A stretch of DNA of 64,000 nucleotides, taken from contig NZ_JAPFQM010000001.1 of the NCBI RefSeq assembly GCF_026241205.1, forward strand, positions 1,116,001 to 1,180,000, written 5' to 3'. Shown here in pieces: positions 46,975-53,551 of this stretch. How positions within the stretch are numbered: position 1 is the stretch's first letter; each line of letters opens with the position of its first letter. Under the pieces are notes generated by a model. The model did no database searches, had not been told where the DNA came from, and saw only the letters and a list, made by a program, of their open reading frames with translations. The position numbers were made by a program, and so were the translations under genes. Source of the stretch: Thermomicrobium sp. 4228-Ro (GTDB lineage Bacteria > Chloroflexota > Chloroflexia > Thermomicrobiales > Thermomicrobiaceae).

Positions 46975-47837
46975 GGCGTTCCCTCCCCGTCTTGAACGCT
47001 GGCGATCGTCTCGCGCCAGACGAGCAGCGCTCGTTCCAACCGGGCGAGGAGCGTGTCGGACAGCTTCCCGAGAAGGCCGAACGAGAGCAGGGCGACGAGG
47101 ACGCGGTCCGGTCGCATCGTCGACTGTCCCTCGACCAAGAGGAAGCCGAGTCCACTGCTCGCGGCGATGAGTTCAGCGGCGACGACGAACATCCAGCCCA
47201 GGCTCAGACCGGCCCGCAGACCGGTCAGGACACCGGGCAGTGCCCCGGGAATGATGACGTGACGGAACGTTCGCCAGCGTCCCAGCCGGTAGATGCGGGC
47301 GAATTCGATGAGGCGCCAGTCGATGCCGCCCACAGCGGCGAGCACGTTGAAATAGACCGGGAGAAAGACCCCGAGGGCGATGAGGAGAATGCGGGATGTC
47401 TCGCCGATGCCGAACCACAGGAGGAACAGCGGCACCCAGGCGAGCGAGGGAATGGCGCGTAAACCTTGAACGGTCGGATCGAGTGCCCGGCGCAGCCAGG
47501 GAGCCAGGCCGGTCAGGGCACCCAGCACGATACCCGGGGCGCTGCCGAGCAGGTATCCCCAGGCCAACCGTTGGAGTGTCGCGACTAGGTGGGTGACGAG
47601 TTCACCGCGCTCGGCCATCTCGCGCGCTGTTGCCACGATGGTCTGCGGTGGCGGCAGCTGGTAGGAGGCAATCAAGCCGGCGGTGACGATCCCCCACCAA
47701 CCGGCAACGATGAGGGCCGGAACGATCCAGGGGACGAGCCAGCCAGCGACGCGCCGCACCAGCGGCCGTGCCTGGTATGTCGCTGCCTGGCTTCGGCTTC
47801 GTTCAGTCGGTCTGGACAGTTCGCGCACAACCATCAC
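46971..47837 (-). CDS. ABC transporter permease, SsuC type
   Basis: 288 aa inner-membrane permease with about 6 helices and the EAA loop FARIYRLGRWRTFRHVIIPG followed by ALPGVLTGLRAGLSLGW. Typical lead ATAREMAERGELVTHLVATLQR. An SsuC/TauC-type subunit that should take substrate from a periplasmic or lipoprotein binding protein. ATG 47837 overlaps the stop of the remnant binding-protein gene as ATGA. With that binding protein gone, import by this unit depends on another binding protein or is lost. Confidence 0.93.
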   Translation of the reverse strand: MMVVRELSRPTERSRSQAATYQARPLVRRVAGWLVPWIVPALIVAGWWGIVTAGLIASYQLPPPQTIVATAREMAERGELVTHLVATLQRLAWGYLLGSAPGIVLGALTGLAPWLRRALDPTVQGLRAIPSLAWVPLFLLWFGIGETSRILLIALGVFLPVYFNVLAAVGGIDWRLIEFARIYRLGRWRTFRHVIIPGALPGVLTGLRAGLSLGWMFVVAAELIAASSGLGFLLVEGQSTMRPDRVLVALLSFGLLGKLSDTLLARLERALLVWRETIASVQDGEGTP

Positions 47838-48169
47838 GCTCCCCCGTTTGCGAGTACTCGTTCGGCCAGACTCGGTTCGAGCAGCGTTTGCAGTGCCCCA
47901 TCGAGATCAGCCGACGACGGCACGAGATTTTCCTTTCGGATGAGGGGGACGATCTCGCTCAGCGTGCTGTGCAGCGCCTCGCCCGGTACCGGATCGGGGA
48001 AGGAAACCCGCTCGCTGAGCACTTTCCGCGCGATCTCGAGGTCAAGCTTGGCGGCCTCGCTCAGAATCTGGGCAAGTTCGTCAGGATGTTGCAGCGCCCA
48101 CTGGCGCCCACGCTCATAGAGGGCGAGGACGCGCTCGACGACATCTACTGTTCGAGCGGCCGAAATCGA
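47834..48169 (-). pseudogene. C-terminal remnant of the SsuA-type substrate-binding protein
   Basis: An open stretch of about 111 codons whose translation (RTVDVVERVLALYERGRQWA, then LQHPDELAQILSEAAKLD and ADLDGALQTLLEPSLAERVL) matches the C-terminal lobe of aliphatic sulfonate binding proteins of 310-340 residues. An in-frame TGA at 48172-48170 closes the 5' end, and no signal peptide or N-terminal lobe can be found upstream. A GTG at 48022 could start a 62-aa piece, but this would not be functional. The stop overlaps the permease start, so operon order SBP-permease-ATPase was the original one. Confidence 0.75.
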
Positions 48170-48501
48170 TCAGGGAATCAGCACTGGGGGATCACTGGCA
48201 GCGGGAACACTCACCGATTCGCGGCCAGAAGGCGAAGACAGCGACCATCGCTGGGCACGGGGGAACCGGTACCGGTCGGTACTGCTCGGTGTTGGAACTC
48301 CGCGCCATCGCTCGCATCCTGGCCACAACAACATACCGGCAGTGTTGAACGGTGCTACCAGTGAGTGGAAGGAACAGTTTGCCGCTCGTCAACGATCGAT
48401 GCCGGTGTCGAAAGAACCGTGCACACCGATGGAATCAGAGGTGATCGTGTCTTCGGAGCTTCGGCTTTTGCCGCCAACAGCCGCTGCGGGAAGCGGAGCG
48501 T
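48170..48501. other. Non-coding stretch between the transporter remnant and the DprA-like gene
   Basis: About 330 bases with no supported gene. The missing 5' two thirds of the binding-protein gene should have been here and beyond, so this is a deletion or replacement junction next to the PRTase/DprA-like pair. No direct repeats or insertion-sequence ends were seen at the edges. Confidence 0.5.
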
Positions 48502-49554
48502 CTACTCCGAGCGTCGTTCCGCTCCTGTGTCGTCGCTTCTTTCGTCCTTTTGCCTTGCGGCAACCCCTTCGCACGTCCCGGGAAGTGCCGCTTGCTGGTA
48601 GTGAGCCTTGTCTGTCGCTCCCCCTGTTCGTTCCCCAGGATTCCGTATCGGCTGCGTCGTGCATAGGGGAGCCGGTGAGCAGGCATGAGAGACTGGGGAC
48701 GGGTCGCCAACCGGAGTCCTGAATGCAGATTCGGTGACCAGCAGAGCGTCAGAACGGACGGCATTGCTTCCACTCATGAGTCGTTCGAGCTCCGAGAGGT
48801 CCTCTGCCCACGCAACGGCGAGTCGTCGTTCGACGAGTTCCTGGCTATGGTCAACGGATAGAGAAGACTGCGGCACGATAACATGGCGGCGGATTTCATT
48901 CGCCTTCCTGACCGCGTGCCATGTCCCGCTCTTGCGTGGGCGATTCGACTGCTCGCGCGGGGTCTCTTCCGGACCGGCTTGCCCGACGATGACGATGTTG
49001 GCGAGAGCCACGATGAGCAAATTCCTGAGCATCGCGTTCTTGCCGGACCAGGGAGTGGACGGAGAAAATGGGCTCACGATGAGAACGCGTGACCGATATC
49101 TCGGGTCTCGCTGGATATCCCGAAGCCGACGCGGCAATCGCTGCCAATCGATCCCCTCAGCCAGGACAGCGATCGTCCTTCCGGTCTCGCTGTCCAGGGC
49201 ACCCTCGAATGCGGCCCGGTCGATGCCGGGGGCGAATCCGGACACGATCACGTATCCTCGTTCGGCGATCTTTCGAGCGAGCCGGCGAATGTGCTCCTCG
49301 ATATCAGGTCTGGGGTGACGAGTTCCGATAATCGCGATCTTTGGAGTGTCGGGATGCAACAGGTTCGCTGGCCCCATGAGCCAGAGGCAGCGCAGGTTCT
49401 CTCCGGTACGTTTCCCGACGTCGTCGTTCACCTGCCCGGACGGGCGGTTAGAAGAAAATGGCCAGCGCCGAAACGGCCATTCCAAGAATGGCCAGAGCGG
49501 ATCGTTATTTGTCAACAGCTTCCACGGTTCTCGTCGTTCCGCTTCTCGCTTCAT
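48502..49554 (-). CDS. DprA/SLOG-fold protein, ShosA-like partner
   Basis: 350 aa. The central part (about 55-270) is a DprA-type Rossmann domain: CLWLMGPANLLHPDTPKIAI, IGTRHPRP, YVIVSGFAPGIDRAAFEGAL, TIAVLAEGID and SPWSGKNAML-like segments (SPFSPSTPWSGKNAMLRNLL) map onto the RG-L, GSR, SGxARGID-x2-AH and GxFPxRNRIIA motifs of DprA, in altered form. The DprA winged-helix is missing; the last 80 residues are low-complexity. Start ATG 49554 is 4 bases after the PRTase stop, with GAGG just upstream. A natural-transformation DprA is less likely because of the changed motifs and the tight PRTase pairing, which is that of ShosTA. Confidence 0.75.
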   Translation of the reverse strand: MKREAERREPWKLLTNNDPLWPFLEWPFRRWPFSSNRPSGQVNDDVGKRTGENLRCLWLMGPANLLHPDTPKIAIIGTRHPRPDIEEHIRRLARKIAERGYVIVSGFAPGIDRAAFEGALDSETGRTIAVLAEGIDWQRLPRRLRDIQRDPRYRSRVLIVSPFSPSTPWSGKNAMLRNLLIVALANIVIVGQAGPEETPREQSNRPRKSGTWHAVRKANEIRRHVIVPQSSLSVDHSQELVERRLAVAWAEDLSELERLMSGSNAVRSDALLVTESAFRTPVGDPSPVSHACSPAPLCTTQPIRNPGERTGGATDKAHYQQAALPGTCEGVAARQKDERSDDTGAERRSE

Positions 49555-49558
49555 GTCC

Positions 49559-50119
49559 TCAGTCCGTTGGGCGGGTACGTGTTCGTGTAACGACCAAAGC
49601 ATACACCCGCGACACGTGCCCCTGCTCCTTGAGTGTCTTCGTCGCTGCGCCGAGAGTCGCACCGGTCTGGTACAGATCATCGAAAAGCAGCACCCAGGCG
49701 CCAGCCAGACGGTACGGATCACGGAGGTCGAAGACCCCTTCCAGTTCCTGCCGTCGTCCTGTAGCGCTCTCGATGTTCTTCAACATCGGCGTCGGCTTCA
49801 CTTTGACGAGGTAGTCCTCGACAAGGGAGATGCCGGTGAGCTGGGCCAGGCAGCGAGCGAGCTCGAGGACGGGTTGGAAGGGACGTTCGGTGTTGGAGGG
49901 TGGTATCGGGACGATCGCGTGTAACCGCGGCCGAACGATTCGAGTGGAGAGTGCTTCGGCGAGTGTACGAGCGAGCGGCTCGATTTGCGATCGGTCGTAC
50001 CGGTACTTGAGCAGGTAGAGGCGCTCCCCGATACTCGTGCGCGAGCCCGCGCTTACCGTATGCCAGTCGAGTGCCCAGCCAGCATCATACGGCCCCGTCG
50101 GTAGCCAGAGCAGCTCCAT
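49559..50119 (-). CDS. ComF-like phosphoribosyltransferase, ShosT-like
   Basis: 186 aa type I PRTase fold. The PRPP-binding loop is WVLLFDDLYQTGATLGAA (canonical VxxVDDVxTTGxT) near residue 140. The N-terminal LYLLKYRYDRSQIEPLARTL and AIVPIPPSNTERPFQPVLEL match ComF-type proteins, but the ComF zinc ribbon is absent. It is the first gene of a two-gene operon with the DprA-like gene, spacing 4 bases. PRTase plus DprA-domain pairs are the hallmark of the ShosTA toxin-antitoxin defence system. ATG 50119 follows GGAGACACC. The preceding 60 bases are AT-rich (CAAAATTTGT), which stands out against the GC-rich surroundings. Confidence 0.82.
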   Translation of the reverse strand: MELLWLPTGPYDAGWALDWHTVSAGSRTSIGERLYLLKYRYDRSQIEPLARTLAEALSTRIVRPRLHAIVPIPPSNTERPFQPVLELARCLAQLTGISLVEDYLVKVKPTPMLKNIESATGRRQELEGVFDLRDPYRLAGAWVLLFDDLYQTGATLGAATKTLKEQGHVSRVYALVVTRTRTRPTD

Positions 50120-50362
50120 GGTGTCTCCAGTACTGAGATGTCGGTCATCAGAAGTCTACAAATTTTGTCGCAATTCAGTGAAGCGAAGTCGATCCGCGCG
50201 GTGTTGCAGCCAAATCCGGAGCAAGCTGGAGTCAGCCCGCTAGCGGTTCGTGCTCGCGCTTCTTTCCCGATCGGGGCGACTGTGCCAAACTGACGGCAGC
50301 ATCGCCGCTCTGGGCACTACGTAGAGTGGGCGAGCGATCGGCGAGGGAGGAGGGTAGTAACG

Positions 50363-53551
<3,189 letters not shown>

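Follow-up and report, generated by a model that had tools for sequence, protein, structure and literature searches.

The locus analysed here lies within a 64,000-nucleotide stretch of the genome of Thermomicrobium sp. 4228-Ro (hereafter the window) and combines, on the same strand, a gene for a stand-alone phosphoribosyltransferase (PRTase) followed by a gene for a protein of DprA (SLOG) fold, whose features are collected in Table 1. The 4-base interval between the two genes, already noticed in the earlier note on this DNA, is confirmed.

Table 1. Features of the PRTase/DprA-like pair and of its immediate surroundings (positions in the window).
Feature	Position	Strand	Basis
NMT1-type substrate-binding gene remnant (3' part), neighbour outside the module	47834-48145	-	comparison with G005 and G001
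DprA-fold (SLOG) ORF, 350 aa, putative antitoxin/sensor; ATG at 49554	48502-49554	-	
C-terminal extension of the DprA-like protein, residues 266-350, unconserved, predicted disordered	48502-48759	-	no coding signature
Conserved part of the DprA-like protein, residues 56-262	48769-49389	-	alignment and codon-position differences to G001
Gap between the PRTase and DprA-like genes, 4 bp	49555-49558	-	
Stand-alone PRTase, 186 aa, ComF-like, putative toxin	49559-50119	-	ORF, tree, clade profile, model
PRPP-binding loop VLLFDDLYQTGAT, PRTase residues 143-155	49655-49693	-	alignment of family members
PRTase N-terminal signature AGWALDWHTVS...YLLKY, residues 13-39, where ComF has its zinc ribbon	50003-50083	-	
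Upstream region, AT-rich, 44% G+C, presumed promoter region	50120-50180	-	base composition

The PRTase begins with its own ATG, preceded by a Shine-Dalgarno-like GGAGA, and its upstream neighbour is a VPS10/BNR gene on the opposite strand. The AT-richness attributed to the upstream region is real: at most 0.1% of 61-bp windows have so low a G+C content. No sigma-70-type promoter match was found, and the pair itself stands at 61% G+C against 65.5% for comparison. The description of the protein as a ComF-like PRTase devoid of a zinc ribbon also holds: the Cys4 ribbon and the PVPLH...RGFNQ motif of ComF are both absent, and the PRPP loop is present, with two Asp residues that are invariant in an alignment of 25 family members. 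An insertion found in nearly all these relatives between HTxS and the RT/first helix is missing from the window protein. Its predicted structure (mean pLDDT 92.6) finds its best solved match in ComF of H. pylori (Z 17.4), followed by ShosT with phosphate or PRPP-Mg (Z 12.3 and 12.2).

The DprA-like protein is matched by Pfam DNA_processg_A over residues 56-237 (105 bits) and reaches 84 bits with TIGR00732, below the cut-off of 191; its altered motifs (SGFAPGID, AFEGAL) and the lack of a winged helix agree with the first description. The AlphaFold model, built from four sequences, can be relied on only over about residues 60-190; its core matches DprA structures (Z 20-21), then ShosA 8zva (Z 18.9), and LOG/PpnN folds are also among its matches. 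For both proteins, such matches between predicted and solved structures indicate the fold and not the membership of a given system. Compared with the same-site copy in the congener G001, the core shows differences of 0.31/0.23/0.49 at the three codon positions, a pattern that we read as past constraint, whereas in the last ~85 residues the corresponding values are 0.56/0.56/0.51. Since this tail has neither a coding signature nor conservation, nor any predicted structure, the functional protein probably ends, or once ended, near residue 265, and the extension is probably the read-through of a lost stop. At the other end, the alignment reveals a short N-terminus, from which the helical domain of the closest homologous partners (loci L166-L168, see below) is absent.

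The gene-neighbourhood survey of the genus confirms that the pair is not a core locus. At the same site, G001 carries a wrecked pair, with an in-frame stop, two small deletions or frameshifts and ~330 bp missing from the PRTase; G005, the closest relative by sequence (91% in the flank), has an intact transporter gene and no pair; G002, G004 and G006 have neither the transporter nor the pair. The PRTase/DprA-like module is accessory within the genus. If it was gained once before these lineages split, it would have been lost cleanly in G005 and would be decaying in G001. The acquisition suggested by the earlier note may plausibly have involved a mobile element. No boundary of such an element was found: the interval around 48100-50450 holds no informative direct or inverted repeats, and no tRNA stands beside the module. 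No defence gene was identified adjoining the pair.

These observations invite the reading that the window copy is a relic, that is, an ancestral working toxin-antitoxin or defence pair on its way to losing its function, its antitoxin trimmed and extended by a read-through tail. The wrecked copy in G001, the absence of the pair from the closer congener G005, the broken transporter gene next door and the two altered ends of the DprA-like protein all point that way, and the missing PRTase insertion, together with the missing N-terminal domain and the unconserved tail of the partner, could mean that the copy is eroding, which would count against an active defence role. Both reading frames are nevertheless open, the PRTase keeps every residue that is invariant across the 25 relatives, and the codon-position pattern of the DprA-like core bespeaks past constraint, so that we regard this reading as unlikely, though it deserves to be kept in view.

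The position of the pair among known proteins was given by phylogeny. In a tree of 83 PRTases, the window protein falls inside a clade of stand-alone PRTases of ~190-205 aa (support 100/98), beside the PRTases of L166-L168 (90/91), to which it is 46-50% identical and which are its nearest relatives; ComF, ShosT and the main RecQ-fused PsyrT group all lie apart. The nearest outgroup of the clade consists of the RecQ-fused PRTases of G062 and G075 (96/88). A profile built on the clade gives 198 bits to the window PRTase and 231-247 bits to two further PRTases of the phylum that likewise stand alone and have short SLOG partners, against 133-141 bits for four RecQ-fused PRTases, 77 for another and at most 89 for ComF. 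In the partner tree, the window DprA-like protein groups with PsyrA and the partners of L166-L168, apart from ShosA and from the host DprA (99/96); its branch is long, and it is not the sister of the L166-L168 partners, two of which (L166 and L168) score 185-190 bits with PsyrA and 125-140 with ShosA. The resemblance to PsyrTA/RqlHI extends to the gene order, the toxin gene coming first and that of a PsyrA/RqlI-type DprA-like protein directly downstream. The window PRTase differs from these systems in lacking the RecQ helicase fusion, in its size (186 aa against ~690) and in belonging to a separate, stand-alone clade.

Members of this clade share with the window PRTase their size, the WxxGxALDxHTxS...LKY signature and the PxPPS...QPV motif, and they are found on plasmids, viral contigs and chromosomes: stand-alone PRTases of this size were recovered from 53 plasmid records, most of these conjugative and the PRTases there mostly annotated as 'ComF family protein', from 79 loci in a collection with one genome per species and from 11 viral contigs. 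In the plasmid loci that were opened, the next gene is annotated as a hypothetical protein, an XRE regulator or an addiction module antidote. A SLOG-fold partner stands directly downstream, as in the window, in 87 of the 90 loci of the clade that were scanned, one of the three exceptions being interrupted by a contig edge. The partner is of a short type (~184 aa, sometimes with a fused HTH) in 84 of the 90; it is DprA-like, as in the window, in L166, L167 and L168 only (325-330 aa), where the two genes overlap by 4 bp. An hhalign comparison (probability 67, E 5e-5) aligns the two types of partner over the beginning of the SLOG fold, a result that is no more than suggestive. L167 and L168 adjoin MazEF-like pairs, and L168 also a putative DNA methyltransferase, named by eye. 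Elsewhere in the phylum, many DprA-like matches adjoin RecQ-PRTase fusions of ~680-1100 aa, of the PsyrTA/RqlHI type, and a few adjoin ShosT-like PRTases with fused or split HAD-like parts (HAD identified by eye); a search of the viral contigs for a DprA-like partner (query A3) found none. Our literature searches, whose coverage left out most subscription papers, returned no paper naming a stand-alone PRTase-SLOG pair, and no toxicity, binding or phage assay for any member of the clade was found in the literature searched.

The operons that associate a stand-alone PRTase with a short SLOG protein (L115-L121, L163-L165 on plasmids, and L166-L255) look like an unnamed toxin-antitoxin family, and PADLOC has no proper model for the short partner.

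SLOG proteins include the LOG/PpnN phosphoribohydrolases, which act on nucleotides made by PRTases. The pair could be conceived on this basis as a nucleotide-salvage or signalling couple in which the SLOG protein would process the product of the PRTase without any toxic role, and the LOG/PpnN folds among the matches of the partner model are in keeping with it. The conserved gene order, the tight, toxin-antitoxin-like spacing, the strictness with which the two genes are paired on plasmids and viral contigs and the occasional antidote-type HTH fusions fit addiction better and favour a toxin-antitoxin over a metabolic function, which we judge very unlikely.

The earlier note had proposed a divergent ShosTA or a sister system, and profile searches as one means of deciding. 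The PADLOC profiles do match both proteins, the DprA-like one with 104 bits for ShosA and 96 for PsyrA, the PRTase with 51.2 bits for PsyrT and 37.9 for ShosT. The host genome (3.07 Mb in 13 contigs), however, has at other loci its own ordinary DprA and its own zinc-ribbon ComF, and these score higher on the same profiles: 235 bits (ShosA) and 124 bits (PsyrA) for DprA, 53.2 bits (PsyrT) and 38.9 bits (ShosT) for ComF, the ShosT result being repeated in the genome scan. Matches to the ShosT, ShosA and PsyrT profiles consequently do not discriminate the window proteins from ComF and DprA, a different criterion is needed, and PADLOC scores were dropped as proof of ShosTA. The genome's third DprA match, L003, adjoins a release-factor gene and is an ordinary LOG-like protein.

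The same ambiguity affects the predicted structures, which match ShosT and ShosA but match ComF and DprA better. What ShosTA and the window pair have in common is the association of a PRTase with a DprA-fold protein; direct comparison with the P2 system separates them. The P2 ShosT, which scores 973 bits on PDLC03012, is a protein of 424 aa whose PRTase-matching region (166-366) lies behind an additional N-terminal part, and BLAST finds no similarity between it and the 186-aa window PRTase (E 0.95); the antitoxin gene precedes that of the toxin in P2 and follows it in the window; and both the PRTase and the partner trees place the window proteins outside the ShosTA groups. Membership of ShosTA was rejected on size, gene order and trees, and a true, divergent ShosTA system is, in spite of the profile and fold matches, highly improbable; of the initial alternative, it is the sister system that stands, as a relative of the stand-alone PRTase-SLOG pairs and of PsyrTA/RqlHI. 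That the two proteins would be competence-type ComF and DprA paralogues engaged in DNA uptake, with which they share superfamilies, folds and best solved structures, is barely credible, given that the zinc ribbon, the ComF motifs and the winged helix are all missing, that the trees and a clade-profile difference of more than 100 bits set the PRTase apart from ComF, and that the host possesses its own copies while the pair is patchy in the genus. As for the PRTase effectors of Type III-A retrons, single members of the clade show a weak PADLOC similarity to them, but neither a reverse transcriptase nor any further gene of a retron was seen next to the pair.

Two loci, L155 (G349) and L156 (G335), encode a HAD-like protein, a DprA-like protein and one or two PRTases in separate neighbouring genes, and look like ShosTA with its toxin split in two. 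Another DprA-like/SLOG protein occurs at L045, L046 and L047 (G016, G008 and G013 respectively, of the same family); in G008, whose copy has a stop, and in G013, it adjoins a protein of ~285-318 aa without a Pfam match, and this type is possibly a separate two-gene module.

Beside the gene content and order, the relationships, the predicted folds and the accessory distribution established here, the model we propose for the window pair is that of a two-gene module of toxin-antitoxin type involved in defence, which would form a helicase-less PsyrTA/RqlHI branch within the stand-alone PRTase-SLOG family; we consider this reading probable. The pair would resemble ShosTA and PsyrTA in its working; the features tested place it in neither system. 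By analogy with these systems, we infer the toxicity of the PRTase, its neutralisation by the partner, DNA sensing and phage defence. The free, PRPP-binding PRTase would harm the cell; the DprA-fold (SLOG) partner would bind it and keep it silent, and would probably release it when phage replication or DNA damage yields abnormal DNA, because DprA-fold proteins bind single-stranded DNA. The harm would most likely result from the consumption of PRPP or from altered purine nucleotides, ShosT being reported to act as both phosphoribosyltransferase and pyrophosphatase and to disturb purine metabolism, and ShosA to bind DNA (PMC12593503). The toxicity of RqlH requires its PRTase domain, which is not toxic alone, and is restrained by RqlI (PMC4670107). 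A DprA-PRTase pair from a P2 hotspot protects against T7 and lambda (PMC9122126).

On a broader scale, the stand-alone PRTase-SLOG pairs may constitute a widespread and uncharacterised toxin-antitoxin or defence family, present on chromosomes as well as in plasmids and viruses and reached by PADLOC solely through cross-hits of its PRTase, of which the window pair and L166-L168 would be the DprA-partnered branch, linking it to PsyrTA and making the helicase dispensable; we would argue for and against this proposal with equal conviction. Should a PRTase of ~190 aa prove toxic with neither a helicase nor another additional domain, and be kept silent by one SLOG protein, this minimal form of PRTase-DprA immunity would allow its toxic reaction and the sensing step to be studied separately. 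The plasmid and viral carriage of the family suggests an overlooked addiction or defence module. Surveys based on ShosT, ShosA and PsyrT profiles without a second criterion may miscount such systems, the housekeeping ComF and DprA being indistinguishable by them.

On the other side of the DprA-like gene, the transporter reported as broken is indeed so: compared with G005 and G001, ~850 bp of its NMT1-type substrate-binding gene are missing at ~48145-48157, and the permease and ATPase genes of this ABC transporter are still open. Between the remnant and the pair, a noncoding segment of ~140 bp (48185-48326, minus strand) is conserved at the corresponding site of G005 and G001 (82% identity); it has no Rfam match and folds only slightly better than its shuffles (z -1.56). 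This segment contains a conserved short leader peptide (48192-48248, minus strand), MVAVFAFWPRIGECSRCQ, also present at G000:C1:1830862-1830903. Its consensus, MxGV[FY][AS]FWPRIC[ED]C..R, has 18 matches, spread over 9 of 61 genomes from the order, and the reversed pattern, used as a control, matches nowhere; the copies differ by synonymous codon changes and stand before NMT1-type ABC transporter, MFS transporter and rhodanese genes. In the window, where the transporter is broken, one Cys of the peptide is changed. The peptide is a candidate attenuation leader responding to cysteine or sulfur.
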